Shown: positions 9,407 through 18,736 of the stretch, in pieces
Position numbering within the stretch: position 1 is the first letter of the stretch
How the letters are laid out: every line of letters begins with the position of its first letter
DNA from: a virus
Direction: 5' to 3' (one strand)
IMG/VR virus record: IMGVR_UViG_3300020463_000139
Coordinates: 1-23,394 of that record
DNA: 23,394 bases
Made by a program: the position numbers and the translations under genes
Notes under the pieces: generated by a model
What the model was told of the DNA's origin: nothing
The model's database searches: none
What the model saw: only the letters and a program-made list of their open reading frames with translations

Positions 9407-9973
9407 CTAAACATAATGAAGGTAACTGCCAACTATGTATTTGGACTCGTTACCTGTTACTTTTCGACCAGCATGAAGATGTGTCCACATTGGTGGGAAC
9501 ATCAACAACCGACCAGCTTTTGGTGTCACAGAAATGCCTCTTTGGGGGAAATCTGTTTCACCGCCCTGTGGTTCATTAAGATATAAGAAAAATACCAAGA
9601 ACCGTTTTGCAGATTCATGATTGCCAACATCTACATGGTCATGAAATTCATCAACACCATTTGGTTCGTATCTTTTCATACGATACATTTCATATGCATA
9701 TTGTGGTGGAAACATCTTATCTGTTACTTCACAATCTTGCATATATCTCCAAACACATTTATTAAAAACACCTTGCAGTTCATCTGCATAAGGTTGCCAG
9801 TTTGGATGTTGTTGTAAAGCAATCTGTGTAAAAGAACGATGGTCTTTTAACACTTGTTTATCAAACTGGGCTTCGTTTCTTTCAAATTCTGAAATAAGTT
9901 CATCACATAACTCTTTTGTTATGATATCATCATATGTGCGAATATAGTTTTCATTCAAACTTTCAAACTGCAT
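9407..9973 (-). CDS. 2-oxoglutarate/Fe(II)-dependent oxygenase, prolyl-4-hydroxylase type
   Basis: 188 residues, a full-length single-domain double-stranded beta-helix oxygenase. The metal ligands are visible as HVD (H113, D115) in EFHDHVDVGNH and a distal His in MWTHLHAG (H165 or H167); K178 in ESKYIVGSY fits the position that binds the 2-oxoglutarate carboxylate. The conserved FFLYLNEPQGGETDFP and GRLLMFPP blocks are typical of the P4H-like group. Substrate unknown: proteins, nucleobases and sugars are all possible for phage enzymes of this class. The start overlaps the upstream oxygenase by 11 bases. The two are homologous in architecture, so this is probably an old tandem duplication or joint acquisition between uvsX and gp41. 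Confidence 0.88.
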   Translation of the reverse strand: MQFESLNENYIRTYDDIITKELCDELISEFERNEAQFDKQVLKDHRSFTQIALQQHPNWQPYADELQGVFNKCVWRYMQDCEVTDKMFPPQYAYEMYRMKRYEPNGVDEFHDHVDVGNHESAKRFLVFFLYLNEPQGGETDFPQRGISVTPKAGRLLMFPPMWTHLHAGRKVTGNESKYIVGSYLHYV

Positions 9974-10535
9974 TATTATTCTCCATCAAATGTCTGAACA
10001 CCATCCAACCAGTTATTATATATTTTGTTTCTGTTTTACTAGCAATCCCATTATGAAAGTGTGTCCAATATGCAGGCCAAACAACACACCTTCCTCTAGT
10101 TGCATTCACTGTTTTATCATACTGTTCAAAGTATGTACCACCCTCATCCTCAACCGTGTTTAGGTAAAACATCCATGCTAAAATACGTTGAAACGTCACA
10201 CCATCGTTTTCACAGTGTGACTTATGATATGCTTCGCCTGGTGTATATTTTTGAACATTGTAACCAAAAAATGGCATCATGGGTGCGACATCATTTATTA
10301 AACGACTATGCGTTCTCACATAATCGTCTATTGGTTTTTTCAGTCCACCCAATACTATTTCGTTTGTTTTTTGGTCTTGAGTATTATTAAATGCTCTGTA
10401 AACTGTAGTGCATTCTCTTTCTTTTACATGAGTTCTGGCATCATGTCTATCTGGATTACTTTCAAAATCCTTGATAACATTTTTACAGTCCTTTGATGTT
10501 AGAGCATTGTCATATACTTCAATGAAGTCAGGCAT
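9963..10535 (-). CDS. 2-oxoglutarate/Fe(II)-dependent oxygenase (HxE variant)
   Basis: 190 residues from the ATG at 10535; ATGs at 10544 and 10550 are possible, while starts further upstream would run far into uvsX. The chosen start overlaps the uvsX stop by 8 bases. The fold matches its neighbour: [14 protein letters not shown] precedes the metal site, then [34 protein letters not shown] and KYIITGW. The first ligand pair reads HCE (H107, E109), so Glu replaces the usual Asp, with distal His H159 or H161 and K171 for 2-oxoglutarate. I recall HxE forms among marine phage oxygenases. Substrate unknown. The different metal triad and different N-terminal half suggest the tandem pair are not redundant. 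Confidence 0.85.
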
Positions 10536-11574
10536 CTTCTTCATTGTCATTTTCCACTTCTTGATTACCATACTTAAATTCTTTCTGAGCAACTTCGTCA
10601 AGTTGTTTCATGACTTCCTCAGTAAAAAACTTTTCTGGGTCATTATTAATTGTCTTACCAAATGTTTTTGTACCATCTGGTAGTTCAATACGAGTGGATA
10701 CTGATTTAAAGATACCGTATTTGAGTGCAAGTTCTAACAAACCATAATACCTATCAAGACCACGTTCATACATCAGACGAACATCAACCATCTTGTTTTC
10801 AATAGTTAAACGTGACTTCTGATTTTTACAGTGAATGATATTACCTACAACTTCTGTACCGTCCTTCTCTTTCTTCTTTGAGAGATAAACGATAGACGAG
10901 GCAGCATATTTAAGACCAGAACCACCACCCATTTCTTTTGTTGGGAACATAGAACCCACAACGTCATATGTGTGATTAGTAACAATCATTGGTACTTTTG
11001 ATTTACCAAGTTTCAAAGTGAGTACTCTGAATGCAGCTTTTAGAACTTGTGCTCGTGTCATGTCTCTGGTTTCTTTACCATCGGCAGTATCATCTACTTC
11101 TTTTGTAGTAGACAACATACCAAGTGAATCAAGACACAACATGATAGGTTGTCTATCTGCTTCATCTTGTTTTAGGTAATCATCCAGTACACGAATTGCT
11201 TGTGTTCTAAATTCTTGCACAGTTGTGACAGGTAGGATAACCATTCTGTTGGGGTCAATACCTCTGTCAATAACCATTTGTTTAGTGATTGCACTTTCTG
11301 ATTCAAAGTACAAAACACCAGCATTTGGATTTGCATCCAAAAACGACTTCACCATTCCCATTACAAAAAATGTTTTACCTGTTGCACTTTCACCAGCAAC
11401 AGCAGTAATCTTGTTTGCAGGCAATCCACCATAGATTGACCCACTCAATAACGCATTAAAGATGTAAGAACCAGTGTCGATAAATGAATCAACATCTCCT
11501 GCTTCTACACCTTCAGATACGAGTGCGGCATATTCATTACCTGCCGTCTTCGCAATATTTTTCAAAAATTCCAT
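10528..11574 (-). CDS. uvsX: RecA-like recombinase UvsX
   Basis: 348 residues (T4 UvsX is about 390). Walker A is GESATGKT (61-68), preceded by [12 protein letters not shown]; Walker B is [11 protein letters not shown] (Asp149). The YFESESAIT strand and IVTNHTYDV with [13 protein letters not shown] correspond to the L1/L2 DNA-binding and sensor region of the UvsX/RecA family. UvsX forms filaments on single-stranded DNA and drives strand invasion in recombination-dependent replication and repair. The C-terminus is acidic ([10 protein letters not shown]), as in other recombinases. A good ribosome site (AGGAAGG) lies in the end of the MazG gene, whose stop is 2 bases before this ATG. No uvsY is visible in the window. 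Confidence 0.95.
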
Positions 11575-11576
11575 AG

Positions 11577-11978
11577 TTATATATCACCTTCCTTTCGATT
11601 GTTGGATAGATACGCATCAAAACCGCCTGGGTATCTTGACTCCAACTTTTCGATATTTGTTTCAATCACATCATCCATAGTAATATCTAGTGCGATACAA
11701 GCTTGTGCAACATACCACATAATATCACCAAGTTCACGTTTCATGTGATATTGTGCATCTTCATCCATAGGTTTTCCTTGGAACATACACTTTTTCACAA
11801 TCTCTGCAAACTCACCACCTTCTGCACTAATACCAATTGCAGCAGTAAGAATACGTTCTGGTGATACACCTTGTTCTTCAATAATTTCACATGATTCGAC
11901 AAAGTAATCAGCATCTTTAGATGCTTGACTTGTTACTTCATCTACAAAATCAGCATACTTAATTAAATCTACAGTCAT
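11577..11978 (-). CDS. mazG: MazG-like NTP pyrophosphohydrolase
   Basis: 133 residues, an all-alpha NTP-PPase. The metal-binding motifs are EGGE (53-56) and ELGD (82-85) in [13 protein letters not shown], with N108 and [10 protein letters not shown] (111-120) as the C-terminal substrate region. MazG-type enzymes hydrolyse (d)NTPs to monophosphate and pyrophosphate. In cyanophages the gene is common; effects on ppGpp were proposed, while dGTP/dCTP were reported as preferred substrates. Beside DNA-modification-like genes it could also clear unwanted host or modified nucleotides, which is inference. It is the first gene of a unit with its own extended -10 promoter and an AAAGGA ribosome site 7 bases before the ATG. 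Confidence 0.9.
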
Positions 11979-12004: not shown

Positions 12005-12033
12005 ATAATATCAAATAAGATACCCATTGTCAA
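12005..12033 (-). promoter_or_regulatory. strong sigma70-like promoter for mazG-uvsX unit
   Basis: Minus strand: -35 TTGACA (12033-12028), 17-base spacer ending in TGA, -10 TATTAT (12010-12005). The TGn just before the -10 makes it an extended -10 promoter. Predicted start at about 11998, about 20 bases before the mazG ATG. The TGA of the -35 is the stop codon of the TAGT-like gene. Confidence 0.8.
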
Positions 12034-12818
12034 GACATAAATTCCTCTAAAGAATTTATTTGTGACGATAGATATGCTTTCTTATATTGGATTTTGATTT
12101 TGTTAAAAGTGCCACCCATCATTTCTTTATGTCCATTATAAGACACATAATCTGGAAACTTCTGAATTAGTCTTGCATGATTATCATTTATCATTTTCAA
12201 GTCTCTACCCATATTTAGGCATCCACCTTCAGTGCCAATAAAATCTGATAGGTAGACAAACCTATCCCACACCCTGTTTCTATAACCCTTAGATAACAGT
12301 TGTAGTGATAGTGATATGTCTTCAGCAGTTGACAACTCCCAATCTAATTCATCTGCACTTGGTAGTTGTGTTCCATCAAAAAAGAATACTTCTGCTGTTC
12401 CAGTATTATCTATGTATTCTCTTCCAGCAGGCGGTAATCCACCAGTTCTAAAACCACCCCAAGATATTCCATTGTCCATCCAATTGTTTGTGGTAGACAA
12501 ACAAATATCCCAATCTTTTGTTGTCATAATTGCTTTTGTCTTATCACCATTGTGCCATGGCTTTCGTACAGCACATTTTACATCATCATCTATCACAAAG
12601 TATCTAGATTGTTGACCATGCTCCCAAATCCACTTACGAGTTGCAGTGATTCCGATATCATTATCTGGAAGAACAACAGTTGGATATTTAGAATACAAAT
12701 GCTGTTCTTTTGGTTGCACTACCAGTTTGGTAATATGCTGGACTGAAGGAGTCATATTATCAAACGTAATCTGATTATGACTCCTTCCTAGTGTTGGAAT
12801 GTAGATTGTGTCAATCAT
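12030..12818 (-). CDS. TAGT-like glycosyltransferase (TET-associated, GT-A fold)
   Basis: 262 residues. The pattern YIPTLGR (6-12), VVQPKEQHLY (33-42), GITATRKWI (56-64), FVIDDDV (74-80), then STAEDISLSLQLLSKGY (163-179) and GTEGGC (195-200) matches my memory of the family called TET-associated glycosyltransferase (TAGT). That family was described computationally in phages carrying base-modification genes. DDD (77-79) would be the nucleotide-sugar/metal-binding DxD, and E166-D167 the second acidic site. Role by family: transfer of a sugar onto a modified DNA base. No TET/JBP-type oxygenase is visible here, so substrate and need are open. The start is coupled to the upstream GIY-YIG-ParB gene by TAATG; the stop is embedded in the mazG promoter. 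Confidence 0.75.
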   Translation of the reverse strand: MIDTIYIPTLGRSHNQITFDNMTPSVQHITKLVVQPKEQHLYSKYPTVVLPDNDIGITATRKWIWEHGQQSRYFVIDDDVKCAVRKPWHNGDKTKAIMTTKDWDICLSTTNNWMDNGISWGGFRTGGLPPAGREYIDNTGTAEVFFFDGTQLPSADELDWELSTAEDISLSLQLLSKGYRNRVWDRFVYLSDFIGTEGGCLNMGRDLKMINDNHARLIQKFPDYVSYNGHKEMMGGTFNKIKIQYKKAYLSSQINSLEEFMS

Positions 12819-14113
12819 TAACTAATCTTGTCTTCCCATTTAGGCAAATCCTCAAAAATGATTTCTGGGTCTTTGACACCTTCACCTTTCAAAAATGATG
12901 TAAGAATTCTGGTATGTATCTTTACCACTTCACTCTTTACATACTCTGTCATTTTTGACATATCTGCATAGTGCATCAATACTTTAATGTTTGGGCGAGG
13001 TTCAAGTCCTGCTTCTTGACGAGCATCAGAATCTTTGCACCATTGTTCTTGAATACGGTCAGACCTAAACATTGAAGACTGATGGACACACAAGGTTGAG
13101 TCAGTCGTTTGAGCACTTGCCTTTTGCGCCTTTTCAATATTTCTAGGATGGTTCTTTTTAGGCTCAGACCATGAAATCCACTTCTTACCTTTCTGCCAAG
13201 AGTCTTGTTCTTTGATAGTATCAACTGCAAACCTTCTAACCTTAGAAATATCATTACCCTTGAAACCACCAGTAATCTTGATATAATCTGTACAATACTT
13301 TGTCTTGAAAGTCTTGTCTTTAATTTTACCAGCAAGATACATATCAATAAGGTCACCAGCACAATCTTCAATTGAGGTTGTCATTCTTTCGATTTCAATT
13401 TTGCGGTTTAATGCATTACCAAAGGCGTGCATTTCTTCCATAGTCAAATCTTCATCAACATAAACAACTTCAATATTTTGACAACGAGAACTCTTTGCTG
13501 CTTCTAGAGTGTGATTACCACCAACCAAAACTTTTTGTCCATCACGGCGAACAATCGTAATAGTAAATCCTTTAGTTGAGTTATTTGAATTCATTTCATT
13601 CCTGTATTCACCAATCTTCTTAGTAGAAACATCGGTATTGAAACGAACTTGAAGTCGAATAAGTCCTTCATAGATTTCAGCTACTTTTACAAGAACTCGT
13701 TCTAATTCTGAATCTGGATTGTATGCATCAGTAGCAAGTTTATCAATTAAATCAAGTCGTGGAAGTTCTTCAGTTTGATACACAAAACCATTCCACTTGT
13801 TCCATGACAATGGGTCATTTTGAGCATTAAGTTTAGTTAGAGTTTCGTTTTCTAACTTAAACATTTCTTTCATAGAACCGACATCAGTAATCTCATATAG
13901 AAATTCTTGTGGTTTTGTTTCAAGTAATTCTTGAAAACTTCCATCAGTAGATGAATTCCAGTAAACACCATCAAATGCAGATTCATTTGATTTCAAACCA
14001 TGCATACCAATATACCACCGATTTGTTGGTTTATGAGTAAACTTGTACATGAATGCTTCTGGAACAAGGTCACCAGCATCCATAATCTTCACTTCTCCAA
14101 ACGGATACGACAT
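12818..14113 (-). CDS. fusion of GIY-YIG-like and ParB-like domains
   Basis: 431 residues; GAGGAG about 9 bases before the ATG. Residues about 20-110 resemble a GIY-YIG nuclease: MYKFTHKPTNRWYIG (22-36) supplies the two motif strands, followed by YWNSS, a helix with acidic KLENETL (86-92) where the catalytic Glu would lie, and WNKWNGF. A linker leads to a ParB/sulfiredoxin-like domain, about 160-240: RLQVRFNTDVSTKKIGEYR, ITIVRRDGQKVLVGGNHTLEAAK, VVYVDED. GGNHTLEAAK takes the place of the ParB GxxRxxA nucleotide-binding motif. The rest (240-431) is helical, Lys-rich and contains CAGDL, KKWISWSEPKKNHPR and a Cys/His stretch; unknown. ParB-like domains recur in phage DNA-modification loci. Possible roles: sequence-specific nuclease, or a modification-linked ATPase/nuclease. 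Domain calls are by eye. Confidence 0.72.
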   Translation of the reverse strand: MSYPFGEVKIMDAGDLVPEAFMYKFTHKPTNRWYIGMHGLKSNESAFDGVYWNSSTDGSFQELLETKPQEFLYEITDVGSMKEMFKLENETLTKLNAQNDPLSWNKWNGFVYQTEELPRLDLIDKLATDAYNPDSELERVLVKVAEIYEGLIRLQVRFNTDVSTKKIGEYRNEMNSNNSTKGFTITIVRRDGQKVLVGGNHTLEAAKSSRCQNIEVVYVDEDLTMEEMHAFGNALNRKIEIERMTTSIEDCAGDLIDMYLAGKIKDKTFKTKYCTDYIKITGGFKGNDISKVRRFAVDTIKEQDSWQKGKKWISWSEPKKNHPRNIEKAQKASAQTTDSTLCVHQSSMFRSDRIQEQWCKDSDARQEAGLEPRPNIKVLMHYADMSKMTEYVKSEVVKIHTRILTSFLKGEGVKDPEIIFEDLPKWEDKIS

Positions 14114-14154
14114 AATAAAAAACTCCTCACTTGATTTACGTTTATCTTACATAC

Positions 14155-14183
14155 ACTATAACATCGTTATCATAACAAGTCAA
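14155..14183 (-). promoter_or_regulatory. sigma70-like promoter for the GIY-YIG-ParB/TAGT unit
   Basis: Minus strand: -35 TTGACT (14183-14178), 17-base spacer, -10 TATAGT (14160-14155). The -35 lies in the last codons of the upstream glycosyltransferase gene, just before its stop. Start predicted near 14148, giving a leader of about 35 bases with a strong GAGGAG ribosome site. Confidence 0.7.
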
Positions 14184-15156
14184 GTACAAAATTCATTTTT
14201 TCTGAAAAAAGTTTGTAGTATTCATCCTGTGATAAAAGCACTTTAGAATAGTTATCACGATACTCTTTTAGTTTGTTCTCAAAACAACTTTCATCTCTCA
14301 ACTGAATTGCTTTGTCAATAAATTCCTCTGGTGAATTAACTCTTTGCCATGGGTCAATATTGTATGTGCTATTACTATCATAGTTTTGCCAAACAAACGG
14401 AATCATACCAATTGAAAGTGCTTCTGGATACCGACTAGTTGTTGCCGTCTGGTCAATCCAGTTAAAACAAAGAGTGCATCTTGCTGGTTCTAATAGTGGA
14501 TATAATTCTTTCCAATCCTTAATCCAAGCAGACTGTCTCTTTACACCAGATGGAAACCCACCAACCATCACAGTTGATAGTTCTGAACGATAGATTTGTC
14601 TGATTGTCTTTTCTCTATCATTACCGTGTTTCATCCTACCCCAATATCCAAAGTCAATTGTCTTCTCTGTACCAATCATTTCAGCAAGTGGATTCTTTAA
14701 TGTCTGAATAAAGTGATACTTCATACCGTGGATATTTCCACTGAAGTCTGTCTCATCTATAGTAACAAAGTTTTTGATGTTGGGTAAAAAACTACGATAC
14801 AGTTCTTCTGTATCCCCTCTGTCACTTCTCCACATGACAACTGTTTTGCCTTCAAAGAATGGTGCAATCTTTTCGATATGACTTTCAGACTTTGCAAGGT
14901 CTTTTGGATTCATTTGCAGTTCACCATGATATCTAAATTCTGAATCTGATGGTATTACAATTACGTCTGCCCAATCAATAGTTTCTGGTGTTCGTACTGG
15001 TCTATTCTGGTTAAATGATACGTTGTATGTGTCATATTTGTGTTGTGGATTTGCCCGCATCCACTTTACATAGTTCTCAAAGAAACTATCCAACACTGTT
15101 TCTAGTGGGCCATTGTATTTTACGTTAGACCGTAATCGTGCAATTGTAATGTTCAT
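14170..15156 (-). CDS. GT-B-like glycosyltransferase
   Basis: 328 residues, coupled to the preceding gene by an ATGA overlap. The N-terminal half has Rossmann-type alternation, with DWADVIVIPSDSEFRYHG (61-78) and GKTVVMWRSDRGD (103-115). The C-terminal half begins at FGYWGRMKHGNDREKTIRQI (169-188), the strand that opens the sugar-nucleotide domain of GT-B enzymes, and contains TSRYPEALSIGMIPFVW (240-256), equivalent to the E-(x7)-E/G-x-P donor-binding region of GT4-like enzymes. These features support a glycosyltransferase, but neither donor nor acceptor can be read from the sequence. DNA-base glucosylation as in T4 alpha- or beta-glucosyltransferase, or modification of virion proteins or host surface glycans, are all possible. 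Proximity to the TAGT-like and ParB-like genes favours DNA, as inference. Confidence 0.7.
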   Translation of the reverse strand: MNITIARLRSNVKYNGPLETVLDSFFENYVKWMRANPQHKYDTYNVSFNQNRPVRTPETIDWADVIVIPSDSEFRYHGELQMNPKDLAKSESHIEKIAPFFEGKTVVMWRSDRGDTEELYRSFLPNIKNFVTIDETDFSGNIHGMKYHFIQTLKNPLAEMIGTEKTIDFGYWGRMKHGNDREKTIRQIYRSELSTVMVGGFPSGVKRQSAWIKDWKELYPLLEPARCTLCFNWIDQTATTSRYPEALSIGMIPFVWQNYDSNSTYNIDPWQRVNSPEEFIDKAIQLRDESCFENKLKEYRDNYSKVLLSQDEYYKLFSEKMNFVLDLL

Positions 15157-16265
15157 CGTATAATATCAATCTTATCCATTGTGTCTTGATTCCAGACTTC
15201 TAGTTCTTTACGAACCTTTCCTTCTGCAATCATCTTATTGTATCTTTTAGTAGCAAGTTTCTTCCACCATGTAATTACATTTTCTAATTCAAACCTGTCA
15301 AAATTTTCTGCCTTAATAAGTTTATCTGTCTTACCTAGTAATACATCCTTTGCATTTGCATAACCATACTCTGACATATAGAATCTTTTCTGTGTGGTAA
15401 CACCACTTGCATCTTCCATCTTTTTACAAAAGATATCGTATGCCTCTTCATTATATTCTTTTAGATTCTGTTTGATAATACCAACCATCTTAGTTTGATA
15501 CTTTAGTTTTCGTGATGAGGCATTCTTGTGAATAAGAGGTTCACCATTGTTTCTCTCTTCAAACCAATTTTTAAGTTCTGGATACATTTCCTCACCAAGT
15601 GTCAATAGGAACTTAGATTGTGTATCACCTTTATATCTCAAAAAAGGACGCATACCATCATACATTGACGCACCCTTAATGTTACCATATAAAGATGTGG
15701 TTTCAAAAAGACAGAACTCAGTTTCATATTTTTTATTCAACATTCTACGACTGTCATGAGAACAACAGATAGCAGCAAGAAGTTTGCCACCAAGATAGTT
15801 GTAACCAAATGGTTGTACAGGAACAATATTAAATCCCATGATTGCACGTTTGTTAAAGATATCTAAATCTGGAATGCCACCCAAGTAATCGTTTCTTGGT
15901 TTAGAGTTAATCAGTGGTGAACCAAAACGAATAAATCCAACTACCGTATCAGTAGTTGTTTCCATAACAACAAGTTTTAAAGTCTTGCCTGGATTTTCAT
16001 CTGGACTAAACGATGCAACCTTTTCTAACATTGCATCAAAGGTCTTACCTTGCATCTGCACAACTTTGAAGTTCATATCTTCTGGGTGCATATCATATTT
16101 TTGAAACATATCATCTTCTAGACCAAAGCCAGGCAATGGTGTAGGAATATCTTTTACACGTTCAATCTTACGAGAACGAAAGTAATCATCAATCCTTTTG
16201 AAATCTTTGAAGTACATAATCAACTTATGTGCAACATCAAACGCATCTTGCCTATCTAATATCAC
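15153..16265 (-). CDS. DruA/DUF4338-like protein
   Basis: 370 residues from a GTG at 16265 overlapping the gp43 stop as GTGA; the next in-frame Met is 16 codons in. The middle matches the DUF4338 (DruA) pattern: TVVGFIRFGSPL (107-118), AIMGFNIVPVQPFGYNYLGGKLLAAICCS (in two blocks, 141-153 and 154-169), and KYETEFCLFETTSLYG (179-194) followed by MRPFLRYKG. In bacteria DruA is a component of the Druantia anti-phage system, and DUF4338 proteins also occur in phages and mobile elements, where the role is unknown. The C-terminal 140 residues are Lys-rich, helical and end in WWKKLATKRYNKMIAEGK. Position between the polymerase and two glycosyltransferases suggests a DNA-directed function, as inference. 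Confidence 0.68.
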   Translation of the reverse strand: MILDRQDAFDVAHKLIMYFKDFKRIDDYFRSRKIERVKDIPTPLPGFGLEDDMFQKYDMHPEDMNFKVVQMQGKTFDAMLEKVASFSPDENPGKTLKLVVMETTTDTVVGFIRFGSPLINSKPRNDYLGGIPDLDIFNKRAIMGFNIVPVQPFGYNYLGGKLLAAICCSHDSRRMLNKKYETEFCLFETTSLYGNIKGASMYDGMRPFLRYKGDTQSKFLLTLGEEMYPELKNWFEERNNGEPLIHKNASSRKLKYQTKMVGIIKQNLKEYNEEAYDIFCKKMEDASGVTTQKRFYMSEYGYANAKDVLLGKTDKLIKAENFDRFELENVITWWKKLATKRYNKMIAEGKVRKELEVWNQDTMDKIDIIR

Positions 16266-18736
16266 GAAAAGAAATCCTCTAGTGTTGTTTGTGTTCCATA
16301 TGACCTATCAATTGTCCATCCAATATTATCAGTAATAAATGTTAGTGGTTCTACAAATGCCTTTTCATATTGTGTATCATAGTCGATATACTTGTGAATG
16401 TCAAGTTCTTTTGGAACTTTCGTAATGAACGAGATTACATTTGCACCAAAGATATTTGGTTGTCTCAACTGAATAAATTTTATCTTATCACCCTCTTGTA
16501 TGGCAGGGTACTTGTGTGTTAATACCTTTTCATTAATCATGTGATTATAAATCAATCCACCCTTGATGTGCATTGGTGTGCCTTTGCGATAGATAGATGC
16601 ACTGTCACGAAACTTCTTTAGTCCGTTAACAGAACGAGGAAACGCAATATCTTCTACGGGCAAATTAATAAATTCATTACGAAAGTTTTGAATAAATTTG
16701 TTTAGTTCCTTTTCATCACCAGACATGATAATCTTCAGTGCTTCTTTAATCTTCTCACGACATGGTGCAGGCGTACTTGACTTGACTGCTTCAATACCCA
16801 TAATCTTGAGAGATGGTTCTTTATATCGAACACCTTCAACATCCCACGCATTAAGAATATATCTTTTCTTGGCAGTCCAGATGCCTTTATCTGCAATCAC
16901 CTCACGTTTCATAAACATCTTCTGGTCATAGGCATGAACGTAATCTGCAAGTTCCTTGTATGATTTGTCAATAAACGGTTCTATCTTTTCTTTTGCAATT
17001 GTGTCAAGGAAACCAACAACATCATTTGGTTTTACCTTTTCAATCAACGCATCAAATGTAACGTAGATTGAATCTGTGTCTGATGCAATAACATAATCCA
17101 TATCAGTATTTAGCAATTTGTTCAAGTACTGATTCATCTTTTTTTCAATCCAACGAATAGACAACTGACCAGCAGTTGTGATACCCTCTGCAATCGCAAG
17201 GTCATAATATCTAAAGTACTGATTACCAATCGCACCATAAGCAGAGTTCAGTGAAATCTTTCTTGCCATCTGGATGTTATTATAACGACTAATAAACTTT
17301 AGATACTTGGGGTCTTTTGTATCTTCATAGTTTTGTTTTGCATCAAGCATTTTACGTTTGAAAATAGTACGGTCATCATAAATCTCTTGCATCATCTCCG
17401 ATAAGAAACCTCTTTTATCAGTTCGATACAATGCACCATTTGGTGTAATAGTACACCTGTCTGGAATATCAATTGGTGTTTCACCCAGCATCGTATCAAC
17501 AGATAGTTTCATATAGTCGCCAGTAACAAGTGTTTCTGGTGACATATTATACTGCATGATAAGATGTGGATACAGTGAGTTCAAGTCAAAAGACATAACC
17601 CATTTATGTTGACCAACCTGTGGGTCTTTTACATATGCACCTTCATACTTGTCAGACTTTGATGAGTGAGACTTTTGTGGTACAACAATCTTTTTCTTCT
17701 TGAGGAAGTTGTGTATCATCACATCCCAATACTTAACTGTACCAAAGATATCTTCATAGTTCACCTTTGCCTCATAGGCCATAGTGAATAGAAGTTGCAA
17801 CATTCCTAACTTATCCTCAAGACGGTCAACAAGTTCAACGTCAACTATATTATAGTCAACAAATGATTGATAGTCTTTTGTATACCAATCTTTAAAAGTA
17901 TCGTATGGATTTTCGTTTTTCTTCTCACCCAACTCTACAAAAGCAATGTGGTCAAGTCGATATGATTCTTGTCTGGAATATGTAAACTTATGATACAATG
18001 CAAGATAATCTAGATTTGCAACTCCACCAATATCATAGGTCTGTTGCTGTCTACCATGATTGTAAACAGAACGAGAGTTTACGATACCCCAAGGAGAAAA
18101 CTCTTTTGCTCGTGCTTCACCAAGAACTTTGGTTACACGATTGATAAGGAACGGCATATCAAAAAACTCTGTGTTCCAACCAGTGATTACATCTGGATAA
18201 TGTTTAACCCAAAAGTTCATAAACTCTGCAAGTAGTTCATTCTCATTGGAACAGTTGATATATGTTACATCTTGTCTGTCGGTATGATATTCACCGATAC
18301 CCCATACTACAATTTTCTTTGTTGATTGATTTTTGATTGTGATAGAAAGCATCTCTTCTTCTGCTTTCTCTGGGTCTGGGAAACCATTTTCACATTGTGT
18401 TTCGATGTCGATGGTACACACAAGTATTTTATCACTATCCCATTCAACTTTATCTGGATAGGTATCAGCAAGATATGTATACGCAAACCTATCCAATCCA
18501 AAGACTAGATGCGGTTGGTTTTGATATTGTGAAATAAATTCTTTTGCACCCTTGATAGTGTCATGTTTGTATGCCATGACATTTTTACCATCAAGAGTCT
18601 TCCATCCAGTTTCTTTCTGAACAGGAACATACAAAGTAGGTGAGTACTTAACTTTGTGATTAAGTCTCTCACCGTTCTTGTATTCTCGTACAAGGATTTG
18701 ATTGCCCCACTGGACAACATTAGTGTAAAATCTCAT
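16262..18736 (-). CDS. 43: DNA polymerase gp43, family B with proofreading exonuclease
   Basis: 824 residues (T4 gp43 has 898). The exonuclease residues are intact: ExoI DIET (D110, E112), ExoII TGWNTEFFD (N188, D193), ExoIII YNIVD (Y295, D299). Polymerase motifs: A FDLNSLYP (D384), B KISLNSAYG (493-501), C ASDTDSIYV (D553, D555), plus a TAKKRYIL block for the KKRY motif. The C-terminus ends in TTLEDFFS, a clamp-binding (PIP-like) tail for gp45. The gene is a single uninterrupted frame, unlike phages whose gp43 is split. A promoter whose -10 ends only 6 bases before the ATG means any transcript from it has almost no leader; no good Shine-Dalgarno is visible. The stop overlaps the DUF4338-like gene as GTGA. 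Confidence 0.97.
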   Translation of the reverse strand: MRFYTNVVQWGNQILVREYKNGERLNHKVKYSPTLYVPVQKETGWKTLDGKNVMAYKHDTIKGAKEFISQYQNQPHLVFGLDRFAYTYLADTYPDKVEWDSDKILVCTIDIETQCENGFPDPEKAEEEMLSITIKNQSTKKIVVWGIGEYHTDRQDVTYINCSNENELLAEFMNFWVKHYPDVITGWNTEFFDMPFLINRVTKVLGEARAKEFSPWGIVNSRSVYNHGRQQQTYDIGGVANLDYLALYHKFTYSRQESYRLDHIAFVELGEKKNENPYDTFKDWYTKDYQSFVDYNIVDVELVDRLEDKLGMLQLLFTMAYEAKVNYEDIFGTVKYWDVMIHNFLKKKKIVVPQKSHSSKSDKYEGAYVKDPQVGQHKWVMSFDLNSLYPHLIMQYNMSPETLVTGDYMKLSVDTMLGETPIDIPDRCTITPNGALYRTDKRGFLSEMMQEIYDDRTIFKRKMLDAKQNYEDTKDPKYLKFISRYNNIQMARKISLNSAYGAIGNQYFRYYDLAIAEGITTAGQLSIRWIEKKMNQYLNKLLNTDMDYVIASDTDSIYVTFDALIEKVKPNDVVGFLDTIAKEKIEPFIDKSYKELADYVHAYDQKMFMKREVIADKGIWTAKKRYILNAWDVEGVRYKEPSLKIMGIEAVKSSTPAPCREKIKEALKIIMSGDEKELNKFIQNFRNEFINLPVEDIAFPRSVNGLKKFRDSASIYRKGTPMHIKGGLIYNHMINEKVLTHKYPAIQEGDKIKFIQLRQPNIFGANVISFITKVPKELDIHKYIDYDTQYEKAFVEPLTFITDNIGWTIDRSYGTQTTLEDFFS

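Follow-up and report, generated by a model that had tools for sequence, protein, structure and literature searches.

A glycosyltransferase cassette between gp43 and uvsX of a marine T4-like phage hints at a form of sugar-coated viral DNA not described so far

What could a phage glycosylate on its DNA if the modification locus that it shares with T4 has no hydroxymethylase? The question is raised by the 23.4-kb IMG/VR record IMGVR_UViG_3300020463_000139 (23,394 nucleotides, analysed whole and called the window here), which comes from a marine member of the Melnitz/HTVC008M group of T4-like phages (Kyanoviridae). Between its genes for the DNA polymerase gp43 and the recombinase UvsX, the minus strand carries a cassette of four complete open reading frames (ORFs), which encode a DruA/DUF4338 protein, a GT-B glycosyltransferase (GT) resembling the BGT of T4, a GIY-YIG/ParB-like fusion and a TAGT glycosyltransferase. 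An original prediction, made from the letters alone, had placed these ORFs and their T4-like replication flanks (MazG, uvsX, gp41 and gp43/62/44/45) correctly, had read the cassette as a possible DNA-modification or anti-defence locus whose acceptor base was unexplained, and had proposed structural comparison and a survey of gene neighbourhoods as checks. Judging from sequences and predicted structures, the cassette is very probably a DNA-glycosylation locus, a reading supported by the likeness of the predicted GT-B structure to T4 BGT, by TAGT homology, by a gene order shared with T4 and Muldoon and by the conservation of the neighbourhood. More specifically, we consider it probable, on balance, that the block is a T4-type DNA-glycosylation locus in which the hydroxymethylase has been replaced.

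The T4 modification locus and its counterpart in the window

In T4, the gene order is gp43, the imm genes, gp42 (dCMP hydroxymethylase), b-gt, segA (GIY-YIG), uvsX, 40 and 41; in phage Muldoon it is gp43, small ORFs, dCMP hydroxymethylase, one ORF, a TAGT-like gene, BGT, uvsX, one ORF and the helicase; and in the window it runs gp43, DruA, BGT-like, GIY-YIG/ParB, TAGT, MazG, uvsX and, further along, gp41. The slot occupied by the cassette is T4's own modification locus: the modification genes are matched save gp42, which is replaced by DruA. What the window has in common with the T4 gp42-bgt locus and with the Muldoon/CC31-type arrangement (gp42-TAGT-BGT-uvsX) is the gp43-uvsX position, a BGT-fold transferase, a TAGT and a GIY-YIG neighbour; unlike these loci, it has DruA/DUF4338 instead of a dCMP hydroxymethylase, and its GIY-YIG domain is fused to ParB. 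Adjacent genes are tightly packed, with overlaps of 4 nt between gp43 and DruA (GTGA) and between DruA and GT-B (ATGA), and of 1 nt between GIY-YIG/ParB and TAGT, so that the cassette reads as an operon coupled with the polymerase gene. Its genes recur across dozens of independent contigs; thus, the cassette is not a product of chance.

The relation of the window GT-B protein to BGT is seen by structure and, weakly, by profile. The protein was modelled with AlphaFold2 and 28 homologues (predicted local distance difference test score, pLDDT, 88.7). When this model was searched with Foldseek against 350,542 PDB chains, T4 BGT and AGT took ranks 1-10 (1bgt, E 3.7e-8). VIA-align placed T4 BGT at Z 17.9-18.9, AGT at 15.5-15.9 and other GT-B enzymes at no more than 15.7, giving BGT a lead of ~3 Z over GT-B enzymes that do not act on DNA; the best BGT superposition had Z 18.9 and a root-mean-square deviation of 3.9 over 294 residues, with 16% identity for 1nzd. 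The structure check thus bears out the GT-B-like label of the original prediction and names T4 BGT as the closest solved structure. A profile of the family, searched against 177,635 PDB sequences, matched T4 BGT alone, with a weak E of 0.012, and hhalign of the family against a profile of six BGTs gave 92.5%, in the donor half only, as compared to 1.0% for a reversed-sequence control. T4 BGT residues R269 and E272 align with the family-invariant R242 and E245, and R191 with the invariant K176.

The second transferase matches PF20691 with 64.8 bits (cut-off 27.5) and phrog_842, annotated as beta-glucosyl-HMC-alpha-glucosyltransferase, with E 2.9e-20. Its tblastn relatives in annotated phages are exclusively second-sugar enzymes of Serratia and Cronobacter T4-like phages, and it shares 25% identity (273 aligned positions) with the Muldoon enzyme, whose gene adjoins BGT. 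The GT-A DxD motif (DDD 77-79; D77-D78-D79) is invariant in nine sequences including that of Muldoon, as is ED at 166-167. TAGT of phages T2 and T6 is the enzyme that attaches the second glucose to DNA (PMC13216743, PMC13390438). From sequence and model together, the two TRANSFERASES of the cassette are predicted to be of DNA type.

DruA as the candidate source of the acceptor

The statement that the window has no TET, nucleotide hydroxymethylase or base kinase was correct. The original prediction left the acceptor unexplained, and indeed no known acceptor enzyme lies in the window, but it overlooked that the slot is the T4 modification locus and that DruA stands in the place of gp42. The complete HTVC008M genome and contigs of 145, 148 and 146 kb that carry both DruA and the BGT-like gene likewise have no PF00303 (the thymidylate-synthase family, which includes dCMP hydroxymethylase), Tet_JBP or PF00145 (C5-methylase). 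TET/JBP is absent from the window proteins scanned and from nine GT-carrying records, and is present in Melnitz. ThyX, considered as a hydroxymethyl source, was set aside: it occurs in some pair-carrying contigs and is absent from HTVC008M. We lean slightly towards DruA itself making the acceptor for glycosylation, standing where gp42 sits in T4.

The window DruA scores 27.2 bits against Pfam DruA (PF14236; cut-off 27.0) and 501 bits against phrog_19197, and the two DruA paralogues of HTVC008M score 40.8 and 65.6 bits against PF14236. Its AlphaFold2 model (pLDDT 89.8) has the GNAT fold and matched a phage Mom among BFVD structures (E 2.5e-4). Invariant in both DruA subfamilies is the motif Q151-P152-x-G154-x-N156-x-x-G159-G160-K161, straight after strand 141-149, a position that probably corresponds to the one at which GNATs bind the pyrophosphate of coenzyme A. 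DruA resembles Mu Mom (PF25680) in its fold, Mom being a phage DNA-base modifier whose true homologues share slots in related phages; unlike Mom, it has no PF25680 match in the Pfam scan. Calling DruA a Mom was rejected because profile comparison found no sequence homology, and a PDB profile search with DruA gave nothing useful. DUF4338 has already been classed as GNAT (PMC10853773), and DruA-like proteins in Synechococcus phages have been noted by structure (PMC12774648); the passages concerned make no tie to DNA glycosylation. No assigned activity for DUF4338/DruA was found in the literature searched.

Viral contigs were scanned with the GT as query, which is how most loci were found, and pairs were counted only where at least 3 kb of sequence flanked the locus on either side. 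DruA lay within 3 kb of the BGT-like gene at 35/37, 28/30 and 22/24 loci after dereplication at 99.5, 95 and 90%, respectively, revealing the conserved neighbourhood that the proposed survey was meant to look for. The contexts of the pair differ, ranging from gp43-uvsX operons and gp46/47 clusters to islands between genes on the opposite strand and regions outside the replisome, and there are two parallel pairings: DruA1-GT1, the window type, and DruA2-GT2, the HTVC008M type, near gp46. DruA of the cyanophage type also occurs by itself, mostly between gp44 and gp62 (0/16 loci have a GT). That the GT is nearly always with DruA and that DruA is also found alone is what would be expected if DruA makes what the GT needs. 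Scanning genome contigs with the GT revealed two loci only: a GT-DruA pair on a contig of a Gammaproteobacteria metagenome-assembled genome, and a distant copy without DruA. Companions of the pair in the slot of relatives include a UDP-glucose-type dehydrogenase and an NAD epimerase, nucleotide-sugar genes that fit a glycosylation system; most of 19 loci have a cytidylyltransferase-like gene (CTP_transf_like) situated between those for DruA and the GT, and the slot may also hold a GT4, where TAGT is absent, or an FkbM methyltransferase.

We infer the following pathway. The GNAT-fold DruA/DUF4338 enzyme would attach a small group to a base during or after replication, as Mu Mom does on adenine; the BGT-like GT-B would then move a sugar from a nucleotide-sugar donor onto this group, and TAGT could add a second sugar, like its T6 relative. 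The GIY-YIG/ParB protein might act on unmarked DNA or guide the enzymes. DNA glycosylated in this way would be bulky and would withstand restriction. That this is a new class of hypermodification, in which a Mom-fold DUF4338 transferase of acyl or carbamoyl type makes the handle and the BGT-like and TAGT enzymes build a mono- or disaccharide without 5-hydroxymethylpyrimidine, strikes us as an even call. If so, DUF4338, and by extension the DruA of Druantia, would be DNA-base modifiers.

Several observations weigh against this interpretation. The interpretation draws on gene identities, predicted folds, synteny, pairing and the absence of known acceptor enzymes from genomes with the pair, and the window is a 23-kb fragment, so that its absences cover the fragment and not the remaining genes of the phage. 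The N-terminal acceptor half of the GT-B protein could not be aligned with BGT sequence, leaving BGT E22 and D100 unmapped; R195 is likewise unmatched in the sequence alignment. The single GT-B sequence matches no Pfam family at E 0.1 and is not called a BGT by Pfam. For DruA, Mu Mom heads the solved structures ranked by VIA (8bv8; 184 residues at Z 9.6), with other GNATs reaching Z 8.9, so that Mom's lead of less than 1 Z is a tie; moreover, hhalign gave DruA and Mom a probability of 0.5%, that is, no sequence homology and no sequence-level pointer to action on DNA. Two GT loci have no nearby DruA, one on a 63.9-kb contig (L033) and one on a 14.6-kb contig amid other glycosyltransferases (L142). 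The distance-matrix correlation of DruA with GT (0.63) is not higher than that of DruA with gp43 (0.67) and so fails to tell whether the genes are coupled in function or merely inherited together. Finally, the slot can hold unrelated cargo: in L017, a gene with an IMP dehydrogenase/GMP reductase domain (233 bits; 13608-14780) sits just before MazG.

Other readings of the locus

Among competing origins for an acceptor hydroxyl, the chief one is a pair of P4H-like 2-oxoglutarate (2OG)-Fe(II) oxygenases encoded in the window. The locus would still glycosylate DNA, on a base hydroxylated by one of these enzymes or by an unrecognised hydroxymethylase, which would leave DruA with an accessory role or with a modification of its own. 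Such oxygenases are common in these phages, and the TET of Melnitz shows that oxygenases can feed the gp43-uvsX slot. However, those of the window match PF13640 and not Tet_JBP; for 2OG1, the part of Melnitz that was compared offers no more than a distant relative (26%), whereas 2OG2 shares 60% identity with an oxygenase of Melnitz, even though that phage has no GT. The constant partner of the GT is DruA and not any given 2OG gene. We consider an acceptor made by another enzyme unlikely, and DruA remains our candidate for the acceptor-making enzyme.

DruA could instead be a defence or superinfection-exclusion protein like the DruA of Druantia. Its pairing with the GT would then be hitch-hiking, the slot being hypervariable and also drawing in mobile genes of the GIY-YIG and HNH kinds. 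Both Pfam and PADLOC return DruA for the window protein, cyanophage proteins have been noted as DruA-like by structure (PMC12774648), and the cargo of the slot is variable. Hitch-hiking predicts many partners for the GT, whereas the pairing holds in unrelated contexts and in the two subfamily pairs. The window protein belongs to the same Pfam family as Druantia DruA, just above the cut-off, but its gene stands in the replisome, paired with a DNA-type glycosyltransferase, and nothing else of Druantia, whether operon or single gene, was recognised in the window, PADLOC having covered the four cassette proteins only. We find this explanation improbable and set aside DruA as a Druantia component. 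Modification of host lipopolysaccharide (LPS) or proteins by the GTs, with DruA unrelated, is very improbable: GT8-type and other pelagimyophage GTs have been argued to act on host LPS, and restriction to be rare in SAR11 (PMC7029224), and the homologue in L142 sits in a glycosyltransferase cluster, but many of the GTs of that study lie in the host-recognition region, whereas the window pair is BGT-like plus TAGT in a replisome operon at the T4 bgt locus, where the BGT-like gene overlaps DruA, itself next after the polymerase gene, and LPS was set aside because locus and closest fold point to DNA.

DNA glycosylation of the T4 type is known; the variant without hydroxymethylase, with a GNAT-fold DUF4338 in the place of gp42, was not found in the literature searched, and the cassette suggests that viral DNA may be sugar-coated in a way not yet described. 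It bears on the 288/753 phage genomes reported to have a TAGT without a recognisable first-sugar transferase (PMC13216743): in some of these, we suggest, the missing enzyme may be a BGT that has diverged beyond the reach of sequence searches, encoded at this locus and using a different acceptor. It also bears on the view of T4 relatives without genes 42 and bgt as having essentially unmodified cytosine (PMC2993671). Moreover, the cassette gives DUF4338/DruA a testable function, and a cultured phage, HTVC008M, carries the DruA-GT pair.

Table 1. Features of the gp43-uvsX region, in window coordinates
Feature	Position	Strand	Basis and remarks
gp43 family-B DNA polymerase	16262..18736	-	ORF; blast to Melnitz/cyanophage gp43; upstream of DruA gene
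DruA/DUF4338 protein, 370 aa, GNAT fold	15153..16265	-	Pfam DruA, AlphaFold2, VIA; proposed acceptor-making DNA-base modifier
GT-B glycosyltransferase, 328 aa, BGT-like	14170..15156	-	AlphaFold2, Foldseek, VIA, family profile; proposed DNA glycosyltransferase
GIY-YIG + ParB/Srx-like fusion, 431 aa	12818..14113	-	19-member alignment, weak PHROGs matches; proposed nuclease or targeting factor
TAGT (PF20691) GT-A-type glycosyltransferase, 262 aa	12030..12818	-	Pfam, phrog_842; proposed second-sugar transferase
MazG-like nucleotide pyrophosphohydrolase	11577..11978	-	Pfam MazG 43.6 bits; 69% to Melnitz MazG; downstream cassette boundary
uvsX recombinase	10528..11574	-	91% to Melnitz and 78% to HTVC008M UvsX; landmark common to T4 and Muldoon loci
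Two tandem P4H-like 2OG-Fe(II) oxygenases, mutually overlapping	9407-9973 and 9963-10601	-	Downstream of uvsX; match PF13640

The GIY-YIG/ParB protein and other occupants of the slot

The GIY-YIG/ParB label of the original prediction is the weakest of the four. The protein has no significant Pfam match, the best being SegE_GIY-YIG (E 0.059, in 3/19 relatives), its PHROGs matches are weak (homing endonuclease, 2.5e-4; ParB, 0.004), and a PDB profile search gave nothing useful. An alignment of 19 members retains Y23, Y34-x-G36 (YxG), E88 and N105/N108, together with GN(H/Q) at 199-200, a ParB-like GNH(T/S) motif; it has no conserved Arg after YIG, with H38 there instead in at least 90%. Tentatively, the protein may be a nuclease that discriminates unmarked DNA.

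Nuclease-type genes recur in the slot of relatives, and one could speculate that they serve a self/non-self role. Besides GIY-YIG/ParB, they include a 213-aa restriction-endonuclease-like ORF without a Pfam match, which together with an N6/N4 DNA methylase (PF01555, 110 bits) replaces GIY-YIG/ParB in L009 (5465-6921) and also in L010 and L089. Two others have a DUF262/GmrSD_N-type look (L017 11107-12531 and L021 7911-9389); that of L021 matches PF03235 with 25 bits, below the cut-off, and that of L017 seemingly ends in an HNH-like motif. A GmrSD_N-type gene is odd beside a glycosylation pair, as glycosylated DNA is what GmrSD restricts.

A promoter-like sequence, TTGACA-17-TATTAT (11/12 match, with TG before the second hexamer), lies at window positions 12033-12005 on the minus strand, overlapping the end of TAGT and extending into the gap that separates it from MazG; the region holds no excess of such sites over chance (50 seen, 43 expected), and this one is therefore suggestive only.

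In Melnitz, which has neither DruA nor a BGT-like GT, the same slot holds a C5-cytosine methylase, a TET/JBP oxygenase (43 bits), a divergent GIY-YIG/ParB homologue and a P-loop kinase-like protein. This is another type of hypermodification cassette in an equivalent position: slot and GIY-YIG/ParB-type protein are common to it and the window, and Melnitz uses a C5-methylase, TET and kinase. The TET/JBP oxygenase of this phage is unannotated and lies with the C5-methylase and the P-loop kinase-like gene between gp43 and MazG-uvsX (L002 10836-14916). A bona fide Mom (PF25680, 173 bits) occupies the cassette slot in L058 and relatives, bona fide Mom genes likewise sit in the slots of L023, L370 and L371, and elsewhere Mom genes lie near gp46/47 or gp43/uvsX, which are DruA addresses. 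As Mom sometimes co-occurs with DruA, the two are not simple alternatives. In Melnitz-3, a Mom homologue is encoded elsewhere in the genome, where it is annotated as DUF465.

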